Of a DNA stretch of 64,000 nucleotides, positions 733 through 57,419 are shown one piece after another. The stretch's first letter is position 1. Each line of letters opens with the position of its first letter. The DNA is taken from positions 2,728,001-2,792,000 of the forward strand of contig OY751485.1 of the NCBI GenBank assembly GCA_963565915.1. Direction: 5' to 3'. The notes under the pieces are model-generated. The model was not told the DNA's origin and did not search any database. It worked only from the letters and a program-made list of their open reading frames with translations. Position numbers and translations under genes: made by a program. The stretch is from Entoloma clypeatum (taxonomy: Eukaryota > Basidiomycota > Agaricomycetes > Agaricales > Entolomataceae).

Positions 733-740
733 GTTATTTC

Positions 741-986
741 TATTCATGTCTTGAGGTGTCTTACAGGGCTTGGACAATCTTTAAACATACTTAAAAAATT
801 AAAAGCTGGCACAATATTTGGTTTAGTAGTTTAAGTAGTTTAAGTGATTTAAGTAATGTTTAATGTGGTTGAGTGATGCTAATTTGAGTTGTCTAAGTAG
901 TTGTTTAATAGTATGAAAGTGCAATGTGCCGTCGACGAGACGTTGCTTTGTGGTTGACATTTTGAAATGAAAAAATAAATGTTTCA
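741..986. other. AT-rich TTAAG repeat (right arm) and downstream spacer
   Basis: The TTTAAGT-rich texture of the left arm continues to about 905. The remainder is spacer just beyond the 3' end of the broken F-box-like gene. No ORF of note and no RNA gene were seen. Confidence 0.3.
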
Positions 987-5578: not shown

Positions 5579-5586
5579 CTTCCTGT

Positions 5587-8502: not shown

Positions 8503-8507
8503 TTTTG

Positions 8508-9493: not shown

Positions 9494-9498
9494 TTAAG

Positions 9499-9910: not shown

Positions 9911-10012
9911 AGTTGCTAAATCTCGTTAGGTTCGCCCAGAGCGAAGAGAGCAACTACCAGACGAGTCAAGACGTCGCGCTTCTTTGAAGACTTTAACAGT
10001 AACCCATTCAGC

Positions 10013-11567: not shown

Positions 11568-11608
11568 ACGACACTAAGTCGCGACCCTTATCTATTAAAC
11601 GGACTTGC

Positions 11609-12744
11609 TTGCCTTGTATGACTGCAGACAATAGAACCTATGTCATCCCTGCCAAGCGAGCCGCTGCGTCGACTAAGATTGTGAAGGGAGATAAACCTCC
11701 GAAAAGACAAGAAATCAGGCTGTTAGCTCAGCTCAAAACACGACGAGGACCAAAGGTTATCCGACCTGAGGTTGACAGCGGATGTGAACGCACATGCATC
11801 CATCCCAGAATAGTACGCGAACAGAACCTCCCCATGTGAGGAATACCACCCATAGCAATTCTAAATGCGGATGGATCACCAAATTGACAACAGAAAGCGA
11901 GCCAACTTGCCGAAGTCAAACTGGATTTGGGAGCACATCAGGAAACCATGGAAGCAATGGTACTGGACATTGGGAGAACGGACATGCTCTTGGGACATGA
12001 CTGGTTGGTACACCACAACCCCACAATCAATTGGACAACTGGCGCGGTAACATTTAACCGGTGCCCAACAACATGTCGAACCAAACACTCGGATTTCAGG
12101 ATTAACCTTAATGGTCGCAAACACCGGGTTCGCATGGTTGAGGTGCGCGACAAAGATGCACCCAAAAAGTCAGATCAGAAATGGAAGCCTGGAGACCCTA
12201 TTTTGGAAGCTATCACTCCCACACCACCTCCCACAACCAAACGACCCTCATATGTTGAACGATTTGCTCATCTTTTCGAGAAAGAGAACTTTGATAAGAT
12301 CCCAAAGGAGAGGGAATGGGACCATGATATCGAACTTACACCGGACACACCAAAGGAACTAGGGGGAAATACATATCCTATGACACAAAAAGAACAAGAG
12401 GAATTGGACGCATTCATTGACAAGGGTCTAGCAACAGGAAAGATCCGCCCATCCAAATCCCCTTATGCCTCCCCTTGCTTCTTCATCAACAAGAAGGATG
12501 GCTCCAAACAATTGGTACAAGATTACCGCATGGTCAATAAATTCACGGTCAAAGACAAGTTCCCACTCCCACGAATATCCGATCTCTTGGACGTACTGAA
12601 AGATGCGGTCTACTTCAATAAAATGGACATCATGTGGGGCTATAACAACGTCCGGATTAAGGAGGGGATGAATGGAAAGCTGCCTTCCTCACCAGTCGAG
12701 GATTGTTCGAACCATTGGTCATGTTTTTCGGTCTTTGCAACTCC
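11609..12744 (+). pseudogene. GypA-1 protease-RT, truncated in RT
   Basis: The protease region shows VDSGCERTCIHP and LLGHDWLVHHNP. The RT begins with the spacer YASPCFFINKKDG, LVQDYRMVNKFTVKDKFPLP and FNKMDIMWGYNNVRI. Stops and frameshifts are present (a TGA near 11837, a frameshift at about 12666). Similarity to GypA-2 ends abruptly after CTTTGCAACTCC at 12744, before the catalytic YMDD, where the inversion breakpoint lies. Confidence 0.85.
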
Positions 12745-13040
12745 TGTATATACAACATTAATGATTATGTGGATGTTTAATCCCACATCATCGTGTAGTG
12801 CAATGAGCTAGCAGATCTGGGCGATAACACCCCAATGATCGCAATGCCCATCCGCCTCCATACATGTGTCTACCAGTTAACTCTGTGTATGATGTTAAAC
12901 ATGGAATAGGGGTCTGATGGACCCTAGTGGAGCAAAACACATGTTGCTGTGTCCCTGTTTCATCTAAGATCCAGTGATTTGACATGTGACTGATGCATTC
13001 TATTTCCAGTCTTTTGCGCTCTCACCCTTCGCATCAAATC
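12745..13040 (+). other. CopA leader segment in reversed orientation
   Basis: Non-coding stretch between the GypA-1 breakpoint and the flipped CopA gag start. It ends with an acceptor-like CTGATGC...ATTTCCAG about 30 nt before the gag ATG. By position it is the CopA 5' leader; the rest of the leader is at 21622-22538. Confidence 0.5.
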
Positions 13041-13245
13041 ATGTCTTCTTTTGATTACAAATCCACTGTCATCAAGATGACCGGCTCTAACTGGAAGGAG
13101 TGGAGCGATAAGATGACAGGGTTTTTACAGTTTGAAGGGACCTGGATGCTTGTATCCGGGGATTGGCCACAACCCTCCATGTTGAGATCCACTTCTAAAG
13201 TGGAAGACAAGAAAGAGCTCCGCGAGTGGAAAGAGAGAGACTTAA
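13041..13245 (+). pseudogene. CopA Gag N-terminus, flipped by inversion
   Basis: The frame MSSFDYKSTVIKMTGSNWKE..., with WSDKMTGFLQFEG and ELREWKERDL, is the typical start of a copia Gag (compare CopB: TTTNFSVYQEKMSAYLKAAKVW). It is on the plus strand, while the rest of CopA is on the minus strand, and it stops exactly at the CTTAA flank of the reversed GypA LTR. The complementary remainder of the frame begins at 9493 on the minus strand. Confidence 0.8.
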
Positions 13246-13647
13246 TGTTATGCTTAACAAACCGTTCCAAGGTTCGGGCAGAGTATGCAGGAAAGTGGAA
13301 AGGCGAAGAGCAAAGTGATTGCTAAATCTAAGGAATCTACTATAGTACAAGAGGTTTATATAGGTACTGACTATAGGCGGTAGCGGATGAGTCAGTACTG
13401 CGGAAGGCAGTGCGCATGAGTAAGGCAACTGCGGGAAGCTATGTACAGTGAGTAAGCTGACTGCGGAAAGCGAGTCAGCGCAGGAGCGAAGTATACTAAA
13501 GGGGATGACGAAGTAATGTAATGAGTCAGACTGGGAATCGAAGGTTGCGAAAGTAGACATTAGACATAGTGAGTTCGTAAGAGGGCGCCGAGTCAGGCCG
13601 ATAAGTAAAAGATATGATGTGGTCCTCATACCGTAGAGTCCGTAACA
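13246..13647 (-). repeat. GypA-1 3' LTR, reversed
   Basis: Plus-strand start TGTTATGC, end GTCCGTAACA. The left flank CTTAA (13241-13245) is the reverse complement of the TTAAG beside the 5' LTR at 9499. It therefore marks the other end of the same insertion, turned round. The polypurine tract lies directly to its right. Confidence 0.85.
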
Positions 13648-13663
13648 TGTTCCCCTCTCCAAG
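13648..13663 (-). other. GypA-1 polypurine tract
   Basis: On the minus strand CTTGGAGAGGGGAACA directly precedes the 3' LTR. The same sequence is beside the GypA-2 3' LTR (45944-45959). Its last five bases on the plus strand (CCAAG, 13659-13663) are the CopB target duplication. Confidence 0.75.
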
Positions 13664-14005
13664 TGTTGAACATATCGCCAGATATGTCGCACCATGTGCT
13701 TGTCACAGGAAGTGATTATAAGTCACTATTACCATATATGTGAGTTTATGGTACAACCACGGACGCATGACTTGTTTATGTATTGTTTGTACAATGGTCC
13801 GTGCGCATATTGGATTAGTATAAATACCCATGTATTTAGTATGGAAAATCCTAACTCTTGAACACCCCAGTTCTCTGAGACGTTGTAGCTAGTTAGCTTC
13901 TTCATTCCACTAACGTCTCTTAACCAGGTTAGTCTAGCTTCCATATGCCTTCGTACCGCTACGTCTTGAGCGCCCTTTGGGCTGCCTACATCGGATACAT
14001 CATTA
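13664..14005 (+). repeat. CopB 5' LTR
   Basis: Begins TGTTGAACATATCG and ends ATACATCATTA. The end is fixed by the TSD on the far side and by the PBS that starts at the next base. It contains the ATG of the leader ORF (13945) and a possible splice donor CAG|GTTAGT at 13928. Confidence 0.9.
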
Positions 14006-39727: not shown

Positions 39728-41581
39728 TTATTGAGATCCTTGTAAGGCCTTCTCGACACTTTCCTGAGTCGAAAGGTTCATCATTCTGGCTAACATTGTC
39801 ATGAACTCCATAGATTTCGAATCAACTGTCATTGGTAGGGGCTGAACAGCCGGTTGAGGTACGCTATGCAGGATTTGTGGGTCGACTGGTACTGACATGT
39901 CCACTTGTCCAGTTGTAGCCACCGCTTTCCACATGTCGCGTTCATCAGCCGCGCGTCTAGTCTTTTCCTGCAACTCCGAGATAAGTTTGTCTTGCTTATC
40001 TTGTACATTTGAATTGAATATTGGCCGCTGAAGGGTAACTATGCCGTCAGGCATAAGATCCACGATGTCATCGTCGGGGGGGTTCTCGATGAAGAACTGG
40101 CCCTGGTTATTCCATTGCCGATCTCGTATATTCCGATTCGATTGAAGTGTGACCAGGCCGTTCGGGGCTAGGTCCACGATTCCATCTTCGGGGAGGTTCT
40201 CGATGAAGAACCCCTCCTGGTGCTGGTCTGGTAAGTTCCGGTTGGATTGCAGCGTGATAATACCGTCATCGGGAAGATTTTCGATGACGAACTGCTTTCG
40301 GTCTTTCCAGAGCCTATCCACACGATCTTTCGGTGACAAGTGGAAAGGTTCCCTTGGAAAACCTTTTTCATCCACGTTTGTTCCTTTGCCGTAAGTCTCG
40401 ATTTTTCCTTCAGCTCTGTCGGCAGCTAGGAATTGACAGTCGGCGACAAAATGTCCAACACTCCAGCAATAGTAGCATTTGCGGACGGATGTTAGACTCG
40501 GTCGGTTGGTCCTAGTACCAGCCTCGTCTTTGTGCCGCGAATTCAACAAGGTATGGATCGTTTCAATTGATCTAACCGTTTCTTCGTGTCGCTGACTATT
40601 TTCCTTAGACATGTTGACAAGTACGTCTGTCATCTTAGCCATCGATTCATTTAGATCCTCGAGGAGCTGCACCACCCGGTCAAAAGAGGTAGCAGACTCC
40701 ATGGGTCTCGGTAAGCTCATTCTATTCAAATTGGTAGACCTAACAGCCATTCCAGAAGTACCAGCCGCGGTAACGGTATGGTAACTATCAGCTGATCGTA
40801 CCAAGTCCTCCGAGACTTTGAGCAAGGTCTCGAAATCAATTGGGTCTGTATGGTGACGCGGATTTCTTTCCGGCTCTTTGCCAGTTGAACTAACGTCCTT
40901 CAAAGACTTCTGCGACATCTGCCACGTCACGGTCCTTTTCAATTCGGGGTCAAGACAGTTCAAAAACTTGGCAACGATTTCTCGATTCGAGATACAGCCT
41001 CCACGTAAGAGCTTTCGTCCCTCAAATTTAAATCCTCTGATGAACTCCAACATTACAGACAGATTCTCATTCGATAACGGAGTCGACTTAGCACACAACC
41101 TGTCAAGGCGCACAATCGATCCCTCGAGACTATCGGTCGCTTCGGGGTAGTGACTGATCAATTCCTCCGTGAAGTCTTCGAAGGAACCACCTTCTGACGG
41201 GTAAGCGTCTAAGACAGTCCATTCATCTGCACTACGCTGATCAGCATAATATCTTAGCCAATCCTTCCTTTCTTGGTCATTCGAGACACTGGCACGTATC
41301 AACTCTTTTGCGACGTCCTCAATATAACGAAGTAATTCCTCGGGCCGATTCCTATCAAAGAACGGCGCCTTGGTATCTCGTCTATTGGGCATGCCTTTCT
41401 TAGAGTCTGGCGACATTTCGACAGTGTCCCTTTCTCGTTCAAGGTCTGGTTCAGGTGTTTCGGGTAATGGAGTAAGCGGGGGCAACGCTGACTTCGAGTT
41501 TGAACTTTCACCAGGTTTATTAGGTGCCAGTTCGGGTGCAAGGGGTATATGGGGCTTGTCAACACGACAGCTTTTGGTCAT
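39728..41581 (-). CDS. TRG Gag, 617 aa
   Basis: An intact ATG-to-stop frame. The N-terminus is Pro/Ser-rich. Residues about 75-240 form a Ty3/gypsy-style capsid domain of the agaricomycete kind (LLRYIEDVAKELIRAS, DQERKDWLRYYADQR, FEDFTEELISHYPEA). A region rich in Met and Asn follows, then one zinc knuckle CYYCWSVGHFVADC near residue 373. After that come three repeats of FFIENLPDDGIV..TLQSNRN type (about 425-530) and a charged helical tail. It binds RNA and would build the particle. No protease is fused. An in-frame knuckle and no stop in 1.85 kb argue for a recent functional state. Confidence 0.85.
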   Translation of the reverse strand: MTKSCRVDKPHIPLAPELAPNKPGESSNSKSALPPLTPLPETPEPDLERERDTVEMSPDSKKGMPNRRDTKAPFFDRNRPEELLRYIEDVAKELIRASVSNDQERKDWLRYYADQRSADEWTVLDAYPSEGGSFEDFTEELISHYPEATDSLEGSIVRLDRLCAKSTPLSNENLSVMLEFIRGFKFEGRKLLRGGCISNREIVAKFLNCLDPELKRTVTWQMSQKSLKDVSSTGKEPERNPRHHTDPIDFETLLKVSEDLVRSADSYHTVTAAGTSGMAVRSTNLNRMSLPRPMESATSFDRVVQLLEDLNESMAKMTDVLVNMSKENSQRHEETVRSIETIHTLLNSRHKDEAGTRTNRPSLTSVRKCYYCWSVGHFVADCQFLAADRAEGKIETYGKGTNVDEKGFPREPFHLSPKDRVDRLWKDRKQFVIENLPDDGIITLQSNRNLPDQHQEGFFIENLPEDGIVDLAPNGLVTLQSNRNIRDRQWNNQGQFFIENPPDDDIVDLMPDGIVTLQRPIFNSNVQDKQDKLISELQEKTRRAADERDMWKAVATTGQVDMSVPVDPQILHSVPQPAVQPLPMTVDSKSMEFMTMLARMMNLSTQESVEKALQGSQ

Positions 41582-41931
41582 GTCGATGAGGGTTTGGTTC
41601 TAAGTCCGCGGAACGAACTCGAAGGGGGGGGGTTTTATTTGTAATTGAACAGGGACTTGGTTCGACGGTGTGGGTTCAGAATATTCCAGATATTCCTTTA
41701 TTTGGGTCAAGGGTGCGTTTCCGGCCTTTGAATCGAGAAGATTCTTGGGCTAAGGTTCCACGTCCTTTAGGCGAAAAATTATGGTCGAGATATCAACCGA
41801 CGGAGGGCACTTCGCGTCTCAAACGACAAAGCACGATTATGGGGCGGGGTGGGCACAACTTCAAGAACGGAAGTCGGGGGGGGCAAACAGTTTGAACTAC
41901 TATGAAACCACCCCTCACGGTGGGCTCCAGA
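41582..41931 (-). other. TRG leader with primer-binding site
   Basis: About 350 bp between the 5' LTR and gag. On the minus strand TGGAGCCCACCGTGAGGGG begins two bases from the LTR (about 41912-41930). TGG matches the CCA end of a tRNA, and the rest would pair with an acceptor/T-stem 3' strand CCCCTCACGGTGGGCTCCA. The tRNA species was not identified. Confidence 0.65.
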
Positions 41932-43404: not shown

Positions 43405-43898
43405 TGTTAAGAACTGATTGACAAAAACGTCGGAGCTACGTCGGACGCGTCGGAAGGTCGGAAGGTCGGAGCGCGTGCAATGTAGGGGCAAGGACTTGGC
43501 TTCAACTTGTGTGTTGCGCCCTTGCTAATACGTTGGTGTCCTTATTTCGAAGGATCAGAGGATCAGAGGATCGGAGGTCGGAGGTCGGACTCAAGTTAAG
43601 AGTCGGAAAGAGGACGGGAGGTAAGATGTTGAATCTAAGTTGATATTCAAACTGAAGCTAATACACGATTCTACATAAGTTTAAATACTATGTCGGAGGA
43701 CGTGTGGCTTTGTTGGAGTCGGATAATGAGTGGCTGTCGGAGATTCTTAACATAAGTAAAATGGTCGGATGTAAGTAATGTACATAGTAACGAGATTCAT
43801 AACAGTAAGTATGCATAATAAGTATTAGTCAAAAATGTCAGAGGTGTCGGAGGTGTCGGGATTGGTCGGAAATCGTCGGAATTGGTCGGAATGTAACA
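43405..43898 (-). repeat. GypB 3' LTR with adjoining polypurine tract
   Basis: TG...CA ends. On the minus strand the tract AAGGGGGAAATAC (43899-43911) precedes it. One plus-strand end is a run of GTCGGAATTGG-like units. The ORF start of the antisense gene is 165 bp inside the element from this LTR. Confidence 0.9.
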
Positions 43899-44062
43899 GT
43901 ATTTCCCCCTTAGGGCCGAACCCATGAGGCCTAAGGACCTAGGTGGTCGGTGCGCATGAACTGCGTCATGTGATGCATTGGTTGAAAATACCGTCCGAGT
44001 GGTTCTTTCTTCTTGTTCCCCCATTCTCTTTTTGTTTCAAACTCTTCCGAAAAAACCTCAAT

Positions 44063-45022
44063 ATGTCGGCAACCGATTTTCAAAAGGAGATGGAGGCACT
44101 GCAGGCTAAGCTCACGGAGGTGGAGGCGAAGAAGCGAGCAGCAGAGGAGGAGGCTGTGAGGAAGGCTGAGGAGGAGCGGAGAGCGGAGAAAGAGAGGGCT
44201 GCGGAGGCGGTGCGGTTAGCGGAGGAGATGCATTGGGCGTCGGAGCTGGTGGCTCAGAAGAGGGCTGATGAAGTGGCCGTTGTGCAAGGTGCATCGGGCA
44301 AGGGGTCGGGGGAGCCGCAGGTGGAGAAGAAGAAGAAGAAGGTGATGAAGAAAAGGAAGGTAGAGGAGGTGACGGCGACGGTCGGAGAGGGGTCGGGAGT
44401 CGGGGTCGGGGTCGGCGCCTGTGATAGGTGCATTGTGAAGGGCGTCGAATGCAAACGTGATGAGTGAGTTCCTCTTTGGTTCATCTCTTCTGTTTTAACC
44501 TTTTGTTTTAGGAATAAGTCATCCTGCAAGGGTTGTGTCAAGGACAAGAAGAAGTGCGAGGTCGGAGCGTCGGAGGGAAAGTCAGAGGTGAAGGAGGTGA
44601 AGAAAACAGTGAAGGTGATTAAGGGGAAGAAAAAGGCGTCGGAGATGCCGTCGGAGAGTGGGTCGGAGGACACCGTCTTGGGTGTCCTCAAGATGATACT
44701 GGTGGAGACGAGGCAGGTGAGGCGACTGCTAACAGCAGTCGAAGGCTTGGTGAACACCGAGTATCAACCCGAGTCGCCGGAGGCGTCGGAGGAAGGGTCG
44801 GAGTCGGAGATGGATACAGCGGAGGAGACGCACAAGTTGAGACTGGAGAAGAGGATCGCGAGAAGGATTAGAAAGGATCTTGTGAATAGGAAGAGGTTGG
44901 AGTTGCCGGAGCTGTCGGACAATTCCGACATGTCAATTTCGGAGCCGTTGGAGAAAGCGGAGTCGGAGGAGGAGTCGGACAAGGAGGAGGGTCCATCAAA
45001 CAAGAAACAATGTACTAAGTAG
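44063..45022 (+). CDS. Antisense GypB gene: coiled coil plus Zn2Cys6-like cluster, one intron
   Basis: Two exons, 44063-44463 and 44512-45022, are joined over a 48-nt intron (GTGAGTTCC...TTTTAACC...GTTTTAG), giving 303 residues. The start is MSATDFQKEME; an upstream in-frame ATG at 43943 is possible. Residues 5-75 are a charged heptad helix (Glu/Lys/Ala). Splicing unites CDRCIVKGVEC with CKGCVKDKKKC to give C-x2-C-x6-C-x8-C-x2-C-x6-C, the spacing of the fungal Zn(II)2Cys6 DNA-binding cluster. Unspliced, a stop follows exon 1. Lys-rich segments may be nuclear-localisation signals. The C-terminus is Ser/Glu-acidic. It runs against gag-pol and ends 28 bp from the pol stop. Transcription probably starts near the 3' LTR. 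The function, perhaps control of the element, is inferred. Confidence 0.7.
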
Positions 45023-45049
45023 ATAGAATAGTACTTGTTTTTTCTTGTT

Positions 45050-45536
45050 TCAGAGCGATGTGAGCGGATTCGGTTTGTCGGGATAAGCGGAGTGAAAGTC
45101 GGAGACAAGCTCGGGGGCATTTTCCAATTCATTGGCTGGTAGCCAAGAGAATTCTTCATCAGTGTTTTCATATCCTAACCAACGGATGAAATATAGTAGC
45201 TTGCAGCTACGTTGTCGGTCGATCTTTGAGTTGACTATTTCAGCGATCTCATACTCAAGTTCTCCGTCAATGTCAATCGGAGGAGGCGGAGGTTGGGTCC
45301 GATTCAGAATGGTGTTCGGAGTTGCAGGTTCAAGCATGGAGACGTGGTAGACGGGGTGAACACTGCGGAATGTGTTGGGGAGTTGGAGGGTAAAGGAGTG
45401 TGTGCCGGGTTGTGCAATGATCTCGTATGGTCCCAAGTACTTTTCTGAGAGTTTCTTGGATGGGCGTGTTGTGCGGAAGAACTGTGCTTTGACGAAAACC
45501 TGTTGTCCGACAGAAAATGTTGGAGGTGCGATCCAA
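45050..45536 (-). pseudogene. GypB integrase C-terminus and chromodomain
   Basis: Reads NWIAPPTFSVGQQVFVKAQF, SEKYLGPYEII, FRSVHPVYHVSMLEP and the chromodomain EYEIAEIVNSKID...LYFIRWLGYENTDEEFSWLP. Chromodomains of chromoviruses steer integration to chromatin marks. The frame is complete to its stop at 45050, but it is cut from the rest of integrase by GypA-2 at TTATT. Confidence 0.85.
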
Positions 45537-45541
45537 TTATT

Positions 45542-45943
45542 TGTTATGCTTAACAAACCGTTCCAAGGTTCGGGCAGAGTATGCAGGAAAGTGGAAAGGC
45601 GAAGAGCAAAGTGATTGCTAAATCTAAGGAATCTACTACAGTACTAGACGTTTATATAGGTACTGACTATAGGCGGTAGCGGATGAGTCAGTACTGCGGA
45701 AGGCAGTGCGCATGAGTAAGGCGACTGCGGAAGGCTATGTACAGTGAGTAAGCTGACTGCGGAAAGCAAGTCAGCACGGGAGCGAAGTATACTAAAGGGG
45801 ATGACAAAGTAATGTAATGAGTCAGACTGGGAATCGAAGGTTGCGAAAGTAGACATTAGATATAGTAAGTTCGTAAGAGGGCGCCGAGTCGGGCTGATAA
45901 GTAAAAGATATGACGTGGTCCTCATACCATAGAGTCCGTAACA
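45542..45943 (-). repeat. GypA-2 3' LTR and polypurine tract
   Basis: 402 bp, TG...CA. On the minus strand GCTTGGAGAGGGGAACA (45944-45960) precedes it as the primer tract. It contains three diverged repeats of about 31 bp around GACTGCGGAAGG. Confidence 0.9.
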
Positions 45944-45977
45944 TGTTCCCCTCTCCAAGCTCTGTGTCCTCACAGAG

Positions 45978-46349
45978 TCACTGTCCCCATCCCTCATTGT
46001 TGCCGGGATCGGACCAGTTCGGACTCTCCTTGAGGCTCCAATCATATATCAACTCCTCATTGATGGCTACGGCGAGTTCAAGGCCTTTGATGGCCAGCTG
46101 AATGCGTCGATTTTCGATGACGAGGGTGCTGGTGTAATTCCCGAGAATTTGTTTTTCTTTGGGAGTCGGGGCGACGGGGAGATTGGACAACAAATGAAGT
46201 CGGATATTCATCTGGCGATGAAGGAGATCGGCGAGGGAAGTTTCAAGGGCATGGATTTGGTCTCTCATGGAGAGCGCTTCGTTCATAAGGGCGGCGATGG
46301 CGGGGTTGATGTCAGTGGTGGAGGTGGAGGTGAGGATGGTGTTTGACAT
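45978..46349 (-). CDS. GypA ORF3, small helical protein after pol
   Basis: 123 residues starting MSNTILTSTSTTDINPAIAA. The centre is a predicted helix (MRDQIHALETSLADLLHRQM), and the C-terminus is NWSDPGNNEGWGQ. It lies between the pol stop (46483) and the polypurine tract. The same ORF is recognisable in GypA-1 (21285-21621) and, more diverged, in GypA-3 (57581-57949, ending NGTGWGQ), which suggests selection on the family. No known domain is recognised; an envelope role is unlikely because no membrane segment is seen in this part. Confidence 0.6.
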   Translation of the reverse strand: MSNTILTSTSTTDINPAIAALMNEALSMRDQIHALETSLADLLHRQMNIRLHLLSNLPVAPTPKEKQILGNYTSTLVIENRRIQLAIKGLELAVAINEELIYDWSLKESPNWSDPGNNEGWGQ

Positions 46350-46482
46350 GGCGGTGAGGATGGTTGAGAGGTAAAAGAAGAATGGGGTGGCTATATTGGG
46401 CAGGGAGAAGACTAGAGCGGGGAACTCGGTGTGTGGTTGACTGATGAGGTCGATACTGCCATGGGTTTTGAGAACTCGTCTT

Positions 46483-49400
46483 TTATTGTGGACGAGACGG
46501 GTTCTGCCGATGGAAATCACGGATCAAATCTTGAGCATTCTGAACATTAGTTCGAGGTTCCCATGTGTTCTCTTCTGGACCATATCCTTCCCACTGGACG
46601 AGGTACTGGATCTTTCTGCGGAACTTTCGAGAGTCTAGGATTGTAGACACATGGTACTCTTCTCGTCCTTCAACAATGATCGGATCAGGGGCTGGTTTCT
46701 TTTTCTGGATGGCGTACTTCGGAGTTTCATATGGTGACAACAGGGTCTCGTCGAACACAGGGTGAATCATCTTCCAAGTCTTTGGAAGATCAAGAAGGTA
46801 TGCGCTAGCTCCTTTCTTCTCTAGGACTTTGAATGGTCCATGTTGGAGTGCATCAAGTTTCTTTGAGGGGCGATCGGTCCTGATGTTAGTCCCTTCCAGC
46901 CACACCTTGTCTCCAATGCGGTAGTCCCGAGACGGACTTTGCTGTGTGTCAACTGTCTTCTTCATCTGATCCTGTGCTTGTTTCAGTGCAGCATTGGCTT
47001 CTTCTCGTGCCTGTTTAAGTTTTTTCAAGAAGTCGTTGGCAGCCGGATTAGTATCTTCTAACACGAGCTCTCCCTTCCACGGATGTAAACCGTAGTTGAG
47101 GTAGAATGGGGTGTGCTTCGTTGCCTGATGTTCTTTGTCATTGTACTGGAACTCTGCGATTGTGATCCATTCAGCCCAATCATCCTGTAGATGGTTGACA
47201 AAGTTTTGTAAGAATGCTTCCGTTTCCTGATGCGATCGCTCAGCCTGTCCATCAGTCTGTGGGTGGTATGCGGTGGACAGGTTCCTCTTGATCCCTAACA
47301 TGCGGCAGAGTGTCTCCATGAACTTTGCAGCGAACTGCGGTCCCCTATCACTGATGATCTTCTTGGGAATCCCATGAAGCTTCCATATCTGATCCCGATA
47401 GATCTTGGCTAATCCTTCAGCTGATAGTTCCACGGTTGTTGGAATGAGGTGAAGCATCTTCGAATGTCTATCCGTGATGACCAGAATTGCGTTTTTTTCC
47501 ATCAGATTCTGGTATTGGTCCCACAACGTCGATTCCTATGTCTTCCCATGGGTGACTTGGTGCTGCATGGGGATGTAGCGGAGCATGTCGCTTTTGTCGG
47601 TTAATCTTGTTGCATTGACAAGTGTCGCAACCCTTCACATACTTCTTCACATCATGCAGTATGGTAGGCCACCAGTAGGTGTGAGTGAGGAGTTCATGTG
47701 TCCGGTACTGTCCTGGATGTCCAGCCACTGGTGCATCGTGTGACTCAAACATCAATTCTTGTCGTAATTGTGGATCTGGCGGGACATAGACTCGTTAGCC
47801 TGCATATGTGATGCCGTTTTCCTGTTGATACCAATGAGGATTCTTCTTTAGACCCTGGGCTACTTCTGTCTCCATGCGGTTTGAACCCTTGATGCGTGCG
47901 ATCCACGGATTTTCAATGGTTGTGACGTTTCCAATTTTGATGGAATCAGATGTTTCACCCCCTTCAAAGAATTGTTCCTCCGTGAACATCTCCATTTGTA
48001 CCACATCTTCTGATTCCAACCGTTTCAAGAATAGTCCTTCCTTGAGCATCTGGTCACTGTCCTGTGGTTCGAGTTCCGCTTCATACCAGGGTAAGCGTGA
48101 CAGGATGTCCGCTTTCGCATTGGTCTTGCCGGGCACATGCCGTAATTCGAAGTCATAGTCTTGTAACTTCATTTTCCAGCGTCGCTGTCGTTGATTTAGG
48201 TCCTGAGGACGACGGAAATATTCCAGGTTCTTGTGATCGGTCAAGATCTCGAAACGTTCCCTGGCTTCAAGCAGATAGTGTCTCCAATCTTTCAATGCTT
48301 CCACAACTGCCAGGAGTTCCTTGTCATATATCTCGTAATTCTGTTCAGCCGCGGACATGGTCCGCGACAAGAACACGATGGGGTGCCATTTGTTATCTTG
48401 CTTCTGAGAGAGTACTGCTCCAATTGCATAGCCCAATGCATCGGTTTCAACCCTGAACTGTCCCTCTGGCTTCGGTAATGCCAAGACTGGTGCCGATGTA
48501 ATTGCCTGTATGAGACCTTCAAAAGCTTGCTGCTCCATTGGTCCCCAAGTAAATGCCGTACCGCCTGTGAGCGCGGTGAGAGGTTTCACGATGTTTGAGT
48601 ACCCTTCAATAAATCGTCGATAGAAGTTAGCAAATCCAAGGAACTTCTGAACTTCCTTTTTTGATGTGGGTGCTCGCCAGTTTCGAATTGTATCCACCTT
48701 CTCAGTTTCCATCTCAACGCGTCCCTCACCAACCACATATTCCAATATAGGACATTTCGTTACTTCCCATAAACACTTCTTTTCCTTTAGGAACAAATCA
48801 TTGTCCGATAGGATCTGTAGGATTTCTTCAGTGTTTCGCGCGAGTTCTTCCTTGGTTTTACCGATAACCACGATGTCATCCATGTAGATCATGCAGATAC
48901 GTCGGCGGATCTGGTCCCGGAATAGACTAGCCATCATCCGAGAGAATGTTCCTGGGGAGTTGCAAAGACCAAAAAACATGACCAATGGTTCGAACAATCC
49001 TCGACTGGTGAGGAAGGCAGCTTTCCATTCATCGCCCTCCTTGATCCGGACATTGTTATAGCCCCACATGATGTCCATTTTATTGAAGTAGACCGCATCT
49101 TTCAGTACGTCCAAGAGATCGGATATTTGTGGGAGTGGGAACTTGTCTTTGACCGTGAATTTATTGACCATGCGGTAATCTTGTACCAATCATTTGGAGC
49201 CATCCTTCTTGTTGATGAAGAAGCAAGGGGAGGCATAAGGGGATTTGGACGGGCGGATCTTTCCTGTTGCTAGACCTTTGTCAATGAATGCGTCCAATTC
49301 TTCTTGTTCCTTTTGCGTCATAGGATATGTATTTCCTCCTAGTTCCTTTGGTGCGTCCGGTGTAAGTTCAATACCATGGTCCCATTCCCTCTCCTTTGGG

Positions 49401-50092
49401 ATCTTGTCAAAATTCTCTTTCTCGAAAAGATGAGCAAATCGTTCAACATATGAGGGTCGTTTGGTTGTGGGAGGTGGTGTGGGAGTGACAGCTTCCAAAA
49501 TAGGGTCTCCAGGCTTCCATTTCTGATCCGACTTTTTGGGTGCATCTTTGTCGCGCACCTCAACCATGCGAACCCGATGTTTGCGACCATTAAGGTTAAT
49601 CCTAAAATCCGAGTGTTTGGTTCGACATGTTGTTGGGCACCGGTTAAATGTTACCGCGCCGGTTGTCCAATTGATTGTGGGGTTGTGGTGTACCAGCCAG
49701 TCATGTCCCAAGAGCATGTCCGTTCTCCCAATGTCCAGTACCATTGCTTCCATGGTTTCCTGATGTGCTCCCAAATCCAGTTTGACTTCGGCAAGTTGGC
49801 TCGCTTTCTGTTGTCGATTTGGTGATCCATCCGCATTTAGAATTGCTATGGGTGGTATTCCTCGCGTGGGGAGGTTCTGTTCGCGTACTATTCTGGGATG
49901 GATGCATGTGCGTTCACATCCGCTGTCAACCTCAGGTCGGATAACCTTTGGTCCTCGTCGTGTTTTGAGCTGAGCTAACAGCCTGATTTCTTGTCTTTTC
50001 GGAGGTTTATCTCCCTTCACAATCTTAGTCGACGCAGCGGCTCGCTTGGCAGGGATGACATAGGTTCTATTGTCTGCAGTCATACAAGGCAA
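46483..50092 (-). pseudogene. GypA-2 polyprotein: protease, RT, RNase H, integrase, chromodomain
   Basis: Protease VDSGCERTCIHP; RT with DYRMVNKFTVKDKFPLP and CMIYMDDIVVIG (YMDD intact); RNase H with VETDALGYAIGAVLSQ and TDHKNLEYF; integrase HHCC (HPGQYRTHEL...CDTCQCNK), DDE core (ISDRGPQF, TDGQAERSHQETE) and C-terminal chromodomain YHVSTILDSRKFRRKIQYLV. Defects: TGA after NKKDGSK (about 49189), TAA after GITYAG (about 47795) and a one-base shift in an A7 run at about 47492-47498. Otherwise the length and domain order are those of a complete chromovirus Pol. Confidence 0.9.
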
Positions 50093-50133
50093 GCAAGTCT
50101 GTTTAATAGATAAGGGTCGCGACTTAGCGTCGT

Positions 50134-51336
50134 TTAATCGGACCCTTCAGGAAAATCCTTCTCGTCGGCTTCTAAGATTGTGGTTTCATCATTCTCGGCA
50201 TCTTCCTCGGACACCTTCCTAACCCTTCCGGAGTTCTTCTTCGGCTTGCGGCAGTTGCGCACGATATGGCCTTCTTGGTCACAGTTGAAACACTTGCGAC
50301 CATCTTTCTTCTTTGGAGCGCTACAGTCTTTAGCCAGATGACCGAAGCGCTGACAGTTGTAGCAATGGGCTACTCCTGCTTTGTCGATCTCCATGGCTTT
50401 GCCCTGACCACCATAAGTGGTACCCGATCCGGTGCGCATGTCACTGCCACCTCGGATGACCAGTGCGTGTCCTTCCATCTGTCATCCCTTGTTTCGGATC
50501 TCCTTTGCGTAATCGGTGTACGTCTTGCCATCGCTAGCCACTTGTTCAGAGATTCTGCGGTTGATGTCTTTCTCTAGGATGTATTTCCCAGTTTCTTCGC
50601 CAAGGTTTGACAGTCCCAAGAGTTCTTCAAATTCATCCAAGAACTCATCAACAGTGCGTTTCTCTTGTTTCAGGACTTCGAGTCTCGCTTTGGCAGTGAC
50701 CGACTTGTTGGTGATGGAGAATCGTGTGGCGATATCATCGGAAAAACCTAGCCAGGTGATGTTCTCGTTGTCAACGGCAAGAGCGTCTAACTTGTTACTG
50801 ACCCAGTGTCTGCCGGACCCTTCCATCATGCGGGATAGCACCGCAAGAATCTTCTGATCGTCTGTGAGGCTCTTTTGGAACCTGATGTATAGTTTGGTGG
50901 CCTTCCACCACTCGTCAAAGGTGTATCTGTCCTTGAACATCCCAGGATCTTTGATGATCTTGGATGTATCCATTGTTTGTACAGCCGGGGCTTCTGCCAT
51001 GTCTAGAGTCTGCGGAGGAGAAGAGGGGTTGGGTTGTTGGGATGAAGATGGGGTTCGGGATACAGGTAAGGATTGAAAATGAGTCCCTGTTCTAGGCGTC
51101 TGTTCGATATCTGACTGCGCAGAGTCAAAAGTAAATTCGTCAGGGGACTCGTTGGCGGAATCGGTGGCAAAACGTTCAGAGTATTTCCTCTGTAAATCTC
51201 TAAGGAATCTCTGTTCCTGCGCGTCTGTTGGTCTCGAGAAGGGGTCAAGTCTCTCATTTCGTGCCCAGCGGTTGGACTCGGTCTGTTGTTCTTCGGTGGT
51301 GAAGTGGGCGTAGATCTGCTGCTTCAAGTAAGACAT
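50134..51336 (-). pseudogene. GypA-2 Gag
   Basis: Starts MSYLKQQIYAHFTTEEQQ. The capsid core is MFKDRYTFDEWWKATKLYIR to LEEFEELLGLSNLG-like text, and it is followed by a TGA at 50479-50481 where GypA-1 has CGA. After the stop come two zinc knuckles CYNCQRFGHLAKDC and CFNCDQEGHIVRNC and an acidic tail. A single CpG transition is the only defect noticed. Confidence 0.85.
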
Positions 51337-51689
51337 GATGATGTGGCTCTGGGACGTCTCGGTGTGAGCGTCCTAATCAATCTTCTGATAATGGTTGTCT
51401 GGACACCGATGAACTCTCTGATCTCTGTGATCTGACCTGTCTGAGGTCCTTTTTGAACGCGAAAGCTTTCGAGTTCGTTCTGTCGGGCATTGTAACGTGC
51501 GATCTGGTGTTGCTGAGCAAGATGGATGCTCTCTGCTATCTCGCCATGGGGGCGATGCTCGTCGTTGTCTAGTTCTTCGTCAAGCACCTGCTGTAGGATG
51601 CGACGGATCTCCGATTCGATGTACTGCTGGATAAGCGTAAAATCGATACTGTCTCGAGGACTTAGCTCCTCCTGTCGGGCTTCTGGCAT
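51324..51689 (-). CDS. GypA-2 ORF1
   Basis: MPEARQEELSPRDSIDFTLI... to SSCLT, 121 residues and stop, overlapping the gag start by 13 nt. It is helical, rich in Glu and Arg, and nearly identical to GypA-1 ORF1. An upstream extension is open to 51779. The overlap geometry would allow termination-reinitiation or frameshifting into Gag. Confidence 0.5.
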   Translation of the reverse strand: MPEARQEELSPRDSIDFTLIQQYIESEIRRILQQVLDEELDNDEHRPHGEIAESIHLAQQHQIARYNARQNELESFRVQKGPQTGQITEIREFIGVQTTIIRRLIRTLTPRRPRATSSCLT

Positions 51690-51791
51690 GCTGAATGGGT
51701 TACTGGTGAAGTCTTCAAAGAAGCGCGACGTCTTGACTCGTCTGGTAGTTGCTCTCTTTGCTCTGGGCGAACCTAACAAGATTTAGCAACT

Positions 51792-52192
51792 TGTTATGCT
51801 TAACAAACCGTTCCAAGGTTCGGGCAGAGTATGCAGGAAGTGGAAAGGCGAAGAGCAAAGTGATTGCTAAATCTAAGGAATCTACTACAGTACTAGACAT
51901 TTATATAGGTACTGACTATAGGCGGTAGCGGATGAGTCAGTACTGCGGAAGGCAGTGCGCATGAGTAAGGCGACTGCGGAAGGCTATGTACAGTGAGTAA
52001 GCTGACTGCGGAAAGCGAGTCAGCGCGGGAGCGAAGTATACTAAAGGGGATGACAAAGTAATGTAATGAGTCAGACTGGGAATCGAAGGTTGCGAAAGTA
52101 GACATTAGATATAGTAAGTTCGTAAGAGGGCGCCGAGTCGGGCCAATAAGTAAAAGATATGACGTGGTCCTCATACCGTAGAGTCCGTAACA
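51792..52192 (-). repeat. GypA-2 5' LTR
   Basis: 401 bp, pairs with 45542-45943. The TSD TTATT follows at 52193. The region between this LTR and ORF1 (51690-51791) is a short leader; no PBS could be assigned. Confidence 0.9.
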
Positions 52193-52197
52193 TTATT

Positions 52198-54911
52198 GTC
52201 GGAGGACTTCTGGTAACATCGTTGAGCGTTGGAGATGGTGGCTTTCAGTTCTTGGTGAAGTTCGTTTAAGTCGGTCACGAAGGATCGGGCTCGGGAAGAG
52301 GCGAGGTCTCGTTCTGGGTGAACAGTAATGTTCGGATGGTAACCCTCGTTAGCAAAGAAGGGAGATATGCCAGTGGTAGCACTAGGTGCATTGTTGTACG
52401 CGAACTCCGCAATCGGAAGGAGAGCGGACCAGTTGTCCTGTTGGTAGTTGCAGAATATCCGCAAGTACTGTTCGAGGGTCTGGTTAGTGCGTTCGGTTTG
52501 GCCACCGCCTTTGGGGTGGTAACCGGAGGTGAAGTGGAGGGTCATGTTTAGAGCCTTTCCGAGAGATCGGAAGAATCGGGAGACGAATTTGGGGCTGCAG
52601 TCAGAGGTGACATGTTCGGGGACGCCGTGTTTAGAGAAGACATGCAATACAAAGAGAACGGCAAGGTCTTCGGAGGTGCAGTGAATTGTTGTCGGAATGA
52701 AAATACTTTGTTTCATTAATCGGTCAACGATAACAAGGATTGAATCAAAGTTGTCGGAGGTCGGAAGGGTCTCGATGAAATCCATTGAGATAGAATTCCA
52801 AGGATGTTCGGGGATCGGAAGCTGTTTGAGTAGGCCGTAAGGCTTGTGTCTTTGTGGCTTCAATCGCATGCAAGTGGTACATGACTTGCAATAGTGTTTA
52901 ACAAAATCTCGTATTCTGGGCCAGGTGTAATCACGCTGAATGAGACTGAGTGTCTTGTTCTGACCTGGGTGTCCAGCAAGCATATGATCGTGCTTGTGCT
53001 GTAGGACTCGGAGTTGGAGGTCATCGGAGTCGGGAACATATATCTGATCGTCGTGTCGGAGGAAACCATCGGGGTCGAGAGACCAGTGGGGTTTAGGATC
53101 TTTGGAAAGAGTGTTATAAAGAGTGTCAGATGGGAGTGCTGTGAGTATGTTGTGGTGAAGCTTTTCTATGTCCATGATAATGGTTGCACAGAGGATGGGC
53201 TCAAGGAGTTGAGTCGCGCGAACTGAAGCAGAGAGCTGTTCTTGCAAAAAGACTGGTCGGAGGTTGGTCGGATTGATGTTGATGTAGTCGCTATTTCCCC
53301 CTTTAGGGTAGACATCCCAACATCTGGTTAGAGAGTCAGGTTTAGTTCCCAATCGGCCGGGGCGGAATCGGATGACGAGGTTGAACTGAGAAAGGTATTC
53401 CGACCATCAGACTTGTCGGCGTGAAAGAACTTTGGTGGTGGCAAAATACTCAAGATTTTTGTGGTCGGTAACGACGTCAATCGGAGTACCAGAGCCTTCG
53501 AGGTAATGGCGCCAAATTTTAAATGCTCCGTAGATGGCAAGAAGTTCCTTATCGTGGGTGTCATAGTTTACTTCGGGGGCCGTGAAGGTGTGGGAATGGA
53601 ATGCGACGGGGTGGACTTCATTGTCGGAGGTGACTATTGACAGAATAGCTGCTAGGGCATAGTCAGATGTGTCGGTTTCGACAATTATCGGAGAGTCGGG
53701 GATCCAGTGTGTCAGGATCGGAGCAGTGGTAAATGCCTTTTTCAGGTCATTAAAAGCGGTTCGAGCGTCGTTGGAGAACAGCCAAGTGGCATGTTTCCTG
53801 GTTAAATGAGTGAGTGGAATAGTGATGTTGGAATAGAATGGAATGAAATGTCAGTAAAAGTTTGCAAAACCTAAAAAGGACTGGACGTCCTTCACTCTGC
53901 GTGGTTCAGGCCAATCCTGAATAATCTTGACTTTCGCTTCCGACATTTTGAGTCCGTCGGGAGAAAGGATAAATCCAAGATATTCTACAGTTTCAGCAGA
54001 GAAGTCGCACTTGTTGGCGCAGGCATAAAGACCATGTTGTCGGAGTCGTCGGAGGACTTCTCGGACATGTTTTTTGTGTTCCTCGGGGTTGTCGGAGTAG
54101 ATCAGGATGTCGTTGAGATAAACGGTAATGCAGTTGTCCAGAAGGTCGGAGAAGATGTCGTTCATAAAATGTTGAAAGGCTGCAGATGCGTTAGACAATC
54201 CGAATGGCATGACTAACCATTCAAACGATCCATAGCGAGTGCGGAATGCAGTTTTCCATTCATCACCTTCAGTGATGCGGACTAGGTGGTATGCGTGTCG
54301 GAGGTCTATGGTGGTATAAACACGTGCTTTTCCGGCAGTGGCTAAGAGGTCAGAGATGAGCGGAAGTGGGTATCAGTCCTTCTTCGTGATTTTGTTCAGG
54401 CCTCGGTAGTCGACGCATAGTCGGAGTGATCCATCTTTCTTTCAGACGAAGAGGATCGGAGCGCCATGAGGTGAACTAGAAGGTTTGATGAAACCGATAT
54501 TGAGATGCTTGTCAATGAAGTCTCAGAGGGATCCAAGTTCGGATTGCGAGAGTGAGTACATCGGACCAATTGGAGGGGAAGTACCTTCCTCCAAATTGAT
54601 CTTGAGATCGTACGGTCGGTGGGGTGCAAGGGTGTCGGCTTTTTTCTTACTGAATACATCAGCAAAATTGTGGTATTCCTCGGGTATGCCAGAGAGGTCG
54701 GGAGCGTCGTCGGAGACAGACGCGGAATTGGCGGAGATGTCGGAGAGGTGAACGCGGAAAGCATATGCCTCAGGAGCTTTACAAGCATGGAGATATGTGG
54801 CTGCATTGATCATGGTAATCTGTGGCGGGTCGGAGGTGTTCGAAGTGAGCGGATCGGAGGTGCCCATCGGAGACGGTGGACACTGCAGAGGTGGCGGAGC
54901 TGCCTCAGCAG
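52198..54911 (-). pseudogene. GypB RT, RNase H and integrase core
   Basis: On the minus strand: RT text [41 protein letters not shown], then [10 protein letters not shown], where the catalytic YLDD has become YLND by a CpG transition (CTCGAC to CTCAAC, near 54118). RNase H follows (VETDTSDYALAAILS, TDHKNLEYFATTK), then an integrase zinc module (HDHMLAGHPGQNKT, CKSCTTCMRLK) and a core with MDFIETLP, TSDCSPKFVS and GGGQTERTNQTLEQYL. Several stops are present (about 53346, 53405, 53850, 54375). The frame is cut at 52197 by GypA-2. Confidence 0.9.
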
Positions 54912-55337
54912 TCAACATCGGAGTCGGACTCGGAGTGTTGGGTAACGTAGAATGGAATAAGATACTGCCCAATACAACAGATTGTAGCGGGTGAGCCAGT
55001 TGTGTCCTAGAACCAAATTACAAGACGAATCGAGGGTTGTCACATAAAATGCGATGGTCAGAAGTTCACCGGAAGGAAATCGGAGAGGAAGATCAATAGA
55101 TTGCGTGATATAAGTATTTGAAGAACCGTCAAAAAGTTTCAAAACCATAGGTGAAGGAATCGGAGTCGGAGATAAGTTTAAAGAAGAAATAAATCTGGTA
55201 TCTGCGAAGCAATGTGTAGAACCAGAATCAATAAGAGTCTTTATCGGAAGAGAATCGGAAAAGGTCAGAGATATCAAATCAATACATAGAGAGTTTGGAT
55301 TTGAGAGAGCGGACGCATTGAGTCGGAGGGTTTCCAA
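54912..55337 (-). pseudogene. GypB protease
   Basis: Retropepsin text METLRLNASAL.., TLIDSGSTHCFADTRF (active site D-S-G) and NLVLGHNWLTRYN. A frameshift after this separates it from the RT. It follows Gag with a short gap. Confidence 0.8.
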
Positions 55338-55396
55338 AGGTGCACGAAAGGTGTCAACACAATCCCCAGTACGTGCTGGAATCTGAGGACTGCTTA

Positions 55397-56623
55397 CTAT
55401 TTTTTTGACTTGGTCGTCTTCTCCAATTTGTCCTCAGCTTGGGCCGCGTGGGCCTTTGCTTTGGCATTAGAAGACGATTTCTTCGAGCAGTTGGAAGCCC
55501 AATGACCAACGTTGCCACAAAACATGCATAAATTATTGTCAAATCGTCGTTGGCGTTCTTGGGGAGTTAATTTCCCATCTTTGCCAAGTTTGTCGGAGAG
55601 GGCGGATTTCGGAGAGGTGGATGACAATTTTTGTTGTTGTTGCGAGTTGGGTTTAGATGATGAGGAGTTGTTGTTGGAGGATGATGAAGCGGGGGTCTGT
55701 TTTTTGTCGGATTTGTCAGATTTGTCGGACTTCGGAGTAGATTTGTTGGAGGAGTGCGATTTCTCGCGTTGACATTCCCAGTAGCAAGCATCAATGTTAT
55801 GGGCCATTACTTTCAACTCGGCGAGAGTCTTTGGTTTGGGAAAAGTCCCCAAAACATCCTTGATGTGTTCCGCTAAACCAGTATAGTACCGATATCGGAG
55901 CGCGCCATCATCCCACTGCGTGCGAGCAGAAAGACGTTTGAAGTCCACATTGTAACATAGGATCTTCTGATTGTCGTGCATCCAAAGGTGATCCAGGCTA
56001 TCCTCTGCTTCTCCGGTCAGATCGATAGGTCCGAATTCGGATCGGAGGATGTGCACAAAGGCGGACCAGTCGTCCAACCAGACAGAGTCATCGTCGGACT
56101 CTCCCAAGAGGGTGGGCTCAAACCATTCGAGCGCGGTTCCTCAGAGGTACAACAGAGCGAAACTGACTTTGTTATCATCGTCGTCAAAGGCGGGGTTGTT
56201 TCGGAAATATAGTGTGCATTGTGCGAGGAAACTGGTGAGTTTCCGAGAGTCGGAACCGTCAAAAGTGTCGGGTTCCTTCGACTTCTTTTTCGGAGTTTTC
56301 GGAGTCTCTCTATGTCGGAGCTCCTGCGTCATAAGCATAATTGCTTCAGCAAGGTTTGGAGTTTGCTCGCGACGGAAAGGATTGTTATCGTCAAAAGGAG
56401 AGGTCGGAGATTTAAAAGGACAGAATTCTTCAGGAATCGGAGGTCCTTGTGTCTGAGGTGTTCGGAGACGAGGTGTCGGAGATATGGGGTCAGGTTTGGG
56501 TGCAGATTCTTCTGCGGGAATATCTTGGAACATATGTAGAAATGTCGCCCTGGTGTCCTGCAGGTTTGAAGCTTCTGCTGCGGCTGCTGCTGCATGGGAG
56601 TTCTGAGTGGTGCGGGCTGTCAT
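55397..56623 (-). pseudogene. GypB Gag
   Basis: Starts MTARTTQNSHAAAAAAEASN. The capsid domain runs from KEPDTFDGSDSRKLTSFLAQ through WSAFVHILRSEFGP. A Ser/Asn/Gln-rich stretch and one zinc knuckle CMFCGNVGHWASNC follow. A TGA interrupts after ALLYL at about 56140, where CGA (LYLRGTALEW in related Gags) is likely ancestral. The start is only 46 nt from the 5' LTR. Confidence 0.85.
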
Positions 56624-56669
56624 AACTGGAATTTGAGATACGGATAAGCAAGTGGCAGTTTGAATATAC

Positions 56670-57163
56670 TGTTAAGAACTGATTGACAAAAATGTCGGAG
56701 CTACGTCGGACACGTCAGAAGGTTGGAAGGTCGGAGCGCGTGCAACGTAGGGGCAAGGACTTGGCTTCAACTTGTGTGTTGCGCCCTCGCTAATACATTG
56801 GTGTCCTTATTTCGAAGGATCAGAGGATCAGAGGATCGGAGGTCGGAGGTCGGACTCAAGTTAAGAGTCGGAAAGAGGACGGGAGGTAAGATGTTGAATC
56901 TAAGTTGATATTCAAACTGAAGCTAATACATGATTCTACATAAGTTTAAATACTATGTCGGAGGACGTGTGGCTTTGTTGGAGTCGGATAACGAGTGGCT
57001 GTCGGAGATTCTTAACATAAGTAAAATGGTCGGATGTAAGTAATGTACATAGTAACGAGATTCATAACAGTAAGTATGCATAATAAGTATTAGTCAAAAA
57101 TGTCGGAGGTGTCGGAGGTGTCGGAATTGGTCGGAAATCGTCGGAATTGGTCGGAATGTAACA
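56670..57163 (-). repeat. GypB 5' LTR
   Basis: Same length as the 3' LTR (494 bp). About eleven differences are visible, almost all C/T or G/A at CpG. The TSD GGAAG follows at 57164-57168. Confidence 0.9.
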
Positions 57164-57419
57164 GGAAGATGATTCACCCCATGTTCAATGAGACCCTGTT
57201 GTCACCATACAAAACCCCGAAGTATGCCATCCAGAAGAAGAAACCAGCCCCTGATCCGATCATTGTTGAAGGACAAGAAGAGTACCATGTTTCCATGATC
57301 CTGGACTCTCGGAAATTCCGCGGAAAGACCCAGTACCTCATCCAATGGGAAGGGTATGGGCCAGAAGAAAATACATGGGAACCTCAGATGTCCAGAACGC
57401 TTGAGAACTGATTCATGAT
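57164..57419 (+). pseudogene. GypA-3 integrase C-terminus and chromodomain
   Basis: Continues directly from 43404: KMIHPMFNETLLSPYKTPKY, then YHVSMILDSRKFRGKTQYLI and WEGYGPEENTWEP. The frame ends with a stop after SRTLEN. Confidence 0.85.

Follow-up and report, generated by a model that had tools for sequence, protein, structure and literature searches.

An intron-containing antisense gene with a six-cysteine core in the GypB retrotransposons of Entoloma clypeatum and GTCGGA, its candidate recognition word

Genes that lie antisense to gag–pol in the interval between pol and the 3′ LTR are known from fungal and plant LTR retrotransposons, which are described here as far as the published texts were covered. 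In fungi, such a gene, brtn, is found in the Boty-like elements of Botrytis cinerea and Sclerotinia (Zhao et al., 2011, as cited in PMC7264820 and PMC8365987), an arrangement shared by GypB, the element studied here (PMC7264820). Fungal Ty3/gypsy elements with a chromodomain, which GypB also resembles, have been reported with an ‘add. ORF’ whose function is given there as unknown (PMC2864245). Several plant families also have an antisense gene at this site (PMC7264820, PMC11963269), among them Grande (gene23), RIRE2 and Retand/TRP28, whose antisense ORFs have the same position and orientation as that of GypB, are kept in most copies and are suspected of a nuclear or DNA-binding role. For plant LTR elements and Boty alike, these two papers describe the role of the antisense gene as unknown, and in the text covered their treatment of the plant antisense ORFs contains neither the word zinc nor the word intron and no element-wide motif. 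An antisense gene at this site is already known, and the element-wide GTCGGA word reported below is new here; in the open-licence PMC literature, as far as its text was covered, neither a spliced antisense gene for a Cys6 core nor an element-wide word maintained through synonymous codons was found.

The closest working analogue of the system proposed for GypB would be VANC21 and its element VANDAL21 of Arabidopsis; VANDALs are DNA transposons. VANC21 binds a short motif that occurs in a single orientation and at high density and has spread in tandem (PMC5735166), and VANCs induce a loss of silent marks (PMC10398659). GypB likewise carries a short motif in same-orientation arrays with tandem expansion, rarely so dense elsewhere (PMC5735166); the VANDAL motifs are mainly non-coding, and VANC is a different protein with demonstrated binding, whereas the pairing of protein and motif in GypB is a proposal. 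Sirevirus LTRs are also crowded with motifs of suspected regulatory function that have a CGG-CCG core (GTCGGACGTCCGAC in Usier); unlike GTCGGA these motifs are palindromic and lie in the LTR and near env, and no element-encoded binder is named in the text covered (PMC2829016).

The window, a stretch of 64,000 nucleotides of E. clypeatum DNA (contig OY751485.1, positions 2,728,001–2,792,000), was compared with the assembly from which it comes (GCA_963565915.1; 60.08 Mb in 20 contigs). It contains GypB, a Ty3/gypsy element that reads on the minus strand and the pol of which is interrupted by another Ty3/gypsy element, GypA (Table 1). The GypA LTR pair is 98.3% identical over 404 nt; this element lies outside the proposed system and serves as a negative control for GTCGGA. 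The chromodomain of GypB pol (Pfam E value of 1.7e-07) ends at a stop at 45050–45052 on the minus strand, and the pol and antisense coding regions converge with 27 nt between them. Within this gap, positions 45023–45046 show 0.003 substitutions per site, with indels present, in the 28 copies that have an intact antisense gene, and perhaps hold shared termination or poly(A) signals. Two further open frames were seen on the minus strand: a sense-strand ORF of GypA (181 amino acids, 45978–46523), which lies between pol and the 3′ LTR and overlaps the end of pol, and a frame of 623 codons (39728–41599) without a Pfam match, which includes an imperfect 79-nt direct repeat (at 40029 and 40143).

Table 1. 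Features of GypB and of the nested GypA, in window positions.
Feature	Positions	Strand	Basis or remark
GypB 3′ LTR	43405–43899	−	484 of 495 positions identical to 56670–57164
GTCGGA words of the 3′ LTR (16, single orientation)	43429–43890	+	Shuffle counts
Putative GypB polypurine tract adjoining the 3′ LTR	43900–43911	−	AAGGGGGAAATA, read from sequence
Candidate promoter/5′ UTR, pyrimidine-rich stretch before the antisense ATG	43960–44062	+	Function predicted from sequence
Antisense gene, exon 1 (long charged helix-like repeat, basic KKKKKxxKKRK, first three Cys)	44063–44463	+	
Cys6 core C-x2-C-x6-C-x8-C-x2-C-x6-C, intron between Cys3 and Cys4	44420–44557	+	
Antisense gene, intron (48 nt)	44464–44511	+	GTGAGT...TTTTAACC...TTTTAG
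Antisense gene, exon 2 (last three Cys, two predicted helices, acidic tail, NKKQ-TK end)	44512–45022	+	
GypB pol C-terminus (SH3-like and chromodomain), convergent with the antisense gene	45050–45540	−	Domain search
GypA, Ty3/gypsy element nested in GypB pol	45541–52193	−	LTR pair, domains
Remainder of GypB gag–pol (RT, RNase H and integrase pieces), broken in this copy	52194–56669	−	Domain search
GTCGGA words of gag–pol (27)	52691–56480	+	27 forward and 2 reverse between 52200 and 56669
GypB 5′ LTR	56670–57164	−	LTR pair comparison
GTCGGA words of the 5′ LTR (16)	56694–57155	+	

On the plus strand, a two-exon gene for 303 amino acids occupies the interval between the chromodomain stop and the 3′ LTR, as the earlier note had described; its start codon (ATG, 44063), donor (GTGAGT, from 44464), acceptor (TTTTAG, ending at 44511), stop codon (TAG, 45020–45022) and frame can all be read directly. 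The predicted protein comprises a long charged helix-like stretch, an NLS-like basic stretch, the Cys6 core and an acidic tail. Splicing completes the cysteine pattern across the 44463/44512 junction, and the claim that this is no chance event stands: none of 300,000 residue shuffles reproduced the pattern and, among the 712 donor–acceptor pairs of the window (GT[AG]NG to [CT]AG, 40–80 nt), the intron of this gene alone yields a junction-spanning Cys6 motif. A structure model of exon 2 alone shows two helices in disorder, with a poor pLDDT of 59.7.

A DNA search with the 1151-bp region of the gene gave 40 scored places (of 204 candidates), of which 35 are nearly full-length and five partial, all 88–100% identical to the query; a protein search found 156 exon 2 matches in the genome, and those listed reach down to about 60% identity. 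The gene keeps its ATG, splice sites, single frame and stop in 28 of the 40 copies and is open without splicing in none of them, which bears out the claim that the frame requires removal of the 48-nt intron. The GT donor is present in 39 copies and the AG acceptor in all 40. Among the 12 copies that are not intact, three have an internal stop, three a frameshift (one of these also lacks the GT) and one an ATA in place of the ATG; three more are truncated at the 3′ end and two at the 5′ end. In 36 copies the intron has 48 nt, and in the other four it has 50, 50, 53 and 54 nt; these lengths vary out of phase, so that the intron tolerates such indels. Of the distinct indels, 20 of 25 in the exons are divisible by three, compared with 4 of 19 in the flanking and intron sequence (Fisher p = 1.7e-4). 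The six motif cysteine codons are kept in 40, 40, 40, 40, 39 and 40 of the 40 copies, with some synonymous changes, Cys5 having been lost in copy L044; at a seventh Cys codon, which lies outside the motif (residue 301), 7 of 37 copies have Cys. A genome search with the junction pattern, allowing up to three mismatches, found no intronless (retro-processed) copy, a result that is uninformative about splicing.

The claimed frame is the sole frame open in nearly all copies: exon 2 contains no stop in 39 copies (36–398 in the other five frames) and exon 1 contains four in 38 copies (51–248 in the others). The dN/dS ratio across the 28 intact copies is 0.30 (0.29 within group A, 0.31 within group B and 0.30 between them), a value below 1 that the earlier note had proposed as a check, together with retention of the frame and of the six cysteines, and no higher than that of pol in the same family (0.33 for RNase H/integrase in 14 of 20 copies; 0.39 for the C-terminus in the 20 of 40 copies that could be aligned). 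Restriction to intact copies is a choice that favours conservation; the gradient over codon positions (0.041, 0.055 and 0.086) holds in all 40 copies too. Ratios in the wrong frames are 0.82–1.38 in four of five; in the remaining one, a reverse frame, the ratio is 0.37, a value probably due to third positions shared with the claimed frame, and all reverse frames carry exon 1 stops in 36 or more of 38 copies. A sense-strand gene, or selection on a wrong frame, was rejected on the six-frame stop counts and these ratios. Variants private to one copy comprise 80 nonsynonymous and 40 synonymous changes, compared with 78 and 86 for shared variants (p = 0.0016); the private variants presumably reflect mostly decay after insertion. 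Fixed changes that separate group A from group B (eight nonsynonymous and four synonymous) go against the trend and, at n = 12, are too few to weigh. In the eight LTR pairs that were measured, identity is 95.5–99.2% in six and complete in two, those of L022 and L024, and in both of these copies the antisense gene is intact. The gene thus has the features of an aORF-3R, both in its placement antisense to gag–pol between pol and the 3′ LTR (also in the second family, L063, described below) and in its conservation, with 28 of 40 copies intact and a dN/dS no higher than that of pol. Judged from these sequence comparisons, the antisense gene of the GypB family is under purifying selection, and it is near certain that the gene is real.

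Nine diverged loci (L049–L057) were also fetched. In L050 a fragment that resembles Ty1/copia pol by eye (positions 2–763) replaces exon 1 of a C-type copy, and this locus was excluded from the comparisons. The remaining eight have the splice-made core, with introns of 48–52 nt and linkers that are 8 or 10 residues long. A diverged subfamily, the C type (L053, L056, L057 and L051, the last with Cys2 lost), is 61–64% alike in exon 2 and repeats the gene layout; its exon 1 is different from that of groups A and B, its core reads CKRCIMKK(V/I)EC...x10...CKGCIKDRKKC and its introns measure 50–52 nt and have a CTAAC branch site. Only L049, L053 and L054 look whole among the eight; exon 1 is interrupted by a stop in L055 and L057 and by a frame break in L056, and L052 lacks the ATG. 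The dN/dS ratios between the eight diverged exon 2 sequences and three A/B copies are 0.25–0.39 (24 pairs, pS of 0.31–0.58). Three of the loci are mosaics: in L054 an A-type exon 1 is followed by an intron end and an exon 2 of C type, with the change of type inside the intron, and in L049 and L055 a C-type tail follows an A/B exon 1. These mosaics imply that the antisense gene recombines as modules.

A second Ty3/gypsy family, L063, whose pol is related to that of GypB (76% at the nucleotide level over 906 nt), has an antisense gene of the same plan between pol and LTR (986–1901, minus strand), with a charged helix, CQACAEAKVEC, an intron, CQRCKDGKRVC, an acidic tail and a KKAKTQ end. Its intron is 52 nt long and leaves a linker of x10; an alternative 43-nt acceptor keeps the frame with a linker of x13. 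BLASTP found no similarity between the L063 and window proteins, and only the six cysteines are invariant in an alignment of their cores. Exon 2 of L063 has 150 matches in the genome, some of them pieces of one copy, and 16 are 100% identical over 103 residues. The intron separates Cys3 from Cys4 in every case seen, be it GypB, C type or L063, and the recurrence of one plan in the diverged subfamilies and in L063 indicates that this plan is an old part of the element group.

The Zn(II)2Cys6 cluster has the spacing C-x2-C-x6-C-x(5-12)-C-x2-C-x(6-8)-C, into which the cores fall with linkers of x8 in the window copy, x10 in the C subfamily and x10 in L063 with its 52-nt intron. The description of the gene as Zn2Cys6-like therefore holds for the spacing, and weak best matches to GAL4, PPR1 and Zn_clus agree with it; membership of the family does not follow, as the cores reach 10.4–17.1 bits where matched and the gathering score of PF00172 is 21 bits. 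In one set of five cores, Zn_clus ranks first among families for every core; in a second set of four it is best for one, second for another and absent in two C-type cores. In several cores it is the first half that matches the latter half of the Pfam profile. The whole window protein has no Zn_clus match up to an E value of 10 and no Pfam family below an E value of 0.39. A PDB search up to an E value of 10 matched the window core to GAL4 and PPR1 only, weakly (best E value of 0.85), as did a profile of 11 core sequences (best E value of 0.19); the L063 core has no PDB match up to the same value, and in Pfam a weak ADD_DNMT3 match precedes Zn_clus, both below the cut-off. In Zn2Cys6 proteins, basic residues between Cys2 and Cys3 contact CGG. 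The usual basic residues after Cys2 are replaced in the window copy (CIVKGVEC, the A type, with one Lys; CIMKK(V/I)EC, the C type, has two), and the second half of the core (CVKDKKKC) is basic. The protein resembles GAL4 and PPR1 in the spacing of six cysteines and differs from them in a core below the Pfam cut-off, in basic contacts that are partly missing and in being encoded by a retrotransposon. The likeness to a Zn2Cys6 protein, as far as the sequence goes, is at most one of spacing, and zinc binding is likely.

No homologue outside this genome was found for the whole protein at E ≤ 0.001 (7993 candidates sharing most words scored) or for the Cys core at E ≤ 1 (two candidates). A GypB pol piece has 3610 matches in the same protein database, and the one named organism among the best 120 is the basidiomycete Meripilus lineatus; fungi are therefore present in this database, from which unannotated transposon genes may be absent.

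The word GTCGGA is abundant in both parts of GypB in the window (43405–45022 and 52198–57164), in LTRs and coding regions and in the same orientation. All 16 words of the 495-bp LTR, where the density is highest, are on the plus strand, compared with a mean of 0.48 and a maximum of five in 500 shuffles. The control element GypA has none in its LTR and 0.5 per kb in its interior, and elsewhere in the window the density is 0.4 per kb (1–14000) and 0.1 per kb (20000–43000). Outside GypB, the segment 57500–64000 has seven forward and no reverse words (1.1 per kb). A 7112-bp copy with identical LTRs, L024, contains 89 forward and four reverse words (z of 31), and its most enriched hexamers are GTCGGA and the overlapping TCGGAG. 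Eight copies with both LTRs, from among 20 long loci, contain 576 forward and 25 reverse words inside their 50.7 kb compared with 3 and 11 in 27.9 kb outside. Genome-wide, triple arrays of the word number 1488 + 1524 = 3012 (overlaps counted), compared with 11 + 9 = 20 for the reversed pattern. The VANC-type arrangement, in which same-orientation words are concentrated in the element, is thus present in GypB, and other array-bearing sequences exist. An array of its own, oriented likewise, is present in the L063 LTR, which aligns well to the GypB LTR in three blocks of 37–41 nt only. Two further arrays that do not belong to GypB (L064, 819–1470; L065, 600–770) are perhaps LTRs of further families, and no antisense gene was seen within the 3 kb of sequence retrieved. 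A recombinant copy, L061, has in its LTR more than ten tandem units of a 9-bp sequence that includes GTCGGA.

The sites themselves are nearly fixed for TCGG, where the commonest one-off change is GGCGGA (12 times); position 1 is G, A or T in decreasing order of preference, position 6 is A and the next base is mostly G. In the uninterrupted pol ORF of L022, 33 words were counted compared with 8.3 ± 2.4 in synonymous shuffles (maximum of 16 in 1000), distributed over the three frames as 9, 8 and 16. Among eight control hexamers, the overlapping CCGACT and ACTCCG are also raised and five are near or below expectation; the reverse complement of GTCGGA occurs three times compared with an expectation of 0.6. 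The excess survives synonymous shuffling, so that the words are not accounted for by the protein sequence. In the antisense gene, 13 words were counted against 5.8, and 11 of them share one frame. CGG is the classic half-site of Zn2Cys6 proteins, which typically read CGG triplets. The words would supply a concrete candidate target for the regulator that the earlier note had envisaged, a step beyond what it claimed.

We propose the following scheme. The accessory gene that GypB carries opposite to gag–pol would be transcribed from a start near the 3′ LTR towards pol, and the antisense mRNA would lose its intron of about 50 nt. The intron would survive transposition because the genomic (sense) RNA carries it backwards and unspliceable. 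The product would be nuclear and rich in helices, and its Cys6 zinc cluster would be of the Zn2Cys6 type. As Zn2Cys6 proteins typically read CGG and the element is full of TCGGA, the product may recognise its own element: it would most likely bind the GTCGGA words, with their CGG core, in its own LTRs and body, and binding would mark element copies either for transcription or for anti-silencing, in the way of VANC and VANDAL. We give recognition of the GTCGGA-marked element by its antisense Cys6 protein a probability of roughly one half. More tentative is the wider version, in which self-recognition operates in at least two deeply diverged Ty3/gypsy families, the spliced antisense Cys6 protein reading GTCGGA at about 90 words per copy and de-silencing or activating only its kin. 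HBZ of HTLV-1, a spliced bZIP protein of a retrovirus, is of a sequence type unrelated to the GypB protein. It too is the product of an antisense gene of its own retroelement and is a nuclear regulator (PMC11963269), the role suggested here for the GypB protein.

If the gene is real and the word acts in RNA instead, as UCCGAC, it might be a packaging, Gag/nucleocapsid-binding or stability signal and the protein might have another job, for example as a nuclear cofactor. Such a reading is the main rival, possible and rather doubtful. The strict strand bias over the eight copies fits it, as does the presence of the words in all three frames of gag–pol and, at 13 to 1 in the same orientation, in the oppositely coding antisense gene; the density peak in the LTR, where transcription is controlled, would point to DNA, the CGG core suits the predicted type of protein, and the VANC21 motifs likewise have a single orientation yet act on DNA (PMC5735166).

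It is unlikely that the words are a by-product of mutation (slippage, tandem duplication or biased repair) without any binder, gene and motif sharing the element by history alone. The clear tandem expansion in L061 speaks for such a process, as do the arrays in other sequences for which no gene is known. The flanks, however, differ between sites at which TCGG stays sharply fixed, and the enrichment in gag–pol survives synonymous shuffling. In the LTR alignment CpG is also kept in 83.5% of cells in 17 motif columns compared with 75.5% in 25 other CpG columns, a modest difference between cells that are not independent.

Capture of a host Zn2Cys6 gene, inserted backwards and carried as a passenger, is very improbable. 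The host has 18 Zn_clus matches, and introns of reverse-inserted genes can survive retrotransposition, but the gene is under long-term selection in the diverged subfamilies and recurs with the same plan in a second family; a host parent may yet be among the genome matches, which were listed down to about 60% identity. Slightly less probable still is that the function lies in antisense transcription itself, by way of interference or double-stranded RNA, with an incidental reading frame: this possibility is known for antisense genes of LTR elements (PMC7264820, in the text covered), yet it sits poorly with a dN/dS of 0.3, with indels that keep the frame and with the contrast between the motif cysteines and the non-motif Cys codon. 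A chance open frame in a G+A-rich stretch, which the biased composition and long E/K/R runs might suggest, was rejected and is left with a negligible probability by every comparative test, namely the copies, the stop counts with the other five frames closed in nearly all of them, and the diverged loci.

Recognition of the element by its own antisense Cys6 protein is thus the reading that we prefer. The antisense gene of GypB is accompanied by a candidate target across the whole element, which makes its function directly testable. If the reading is true, codon usage would have been bent to keep a recognition word, and selection would act on the identity of the transposon DNA itself; sequence-specific anti-silencing, known from DNA transposons of Arabidopsis, would then extend to fungal retrotransposons.
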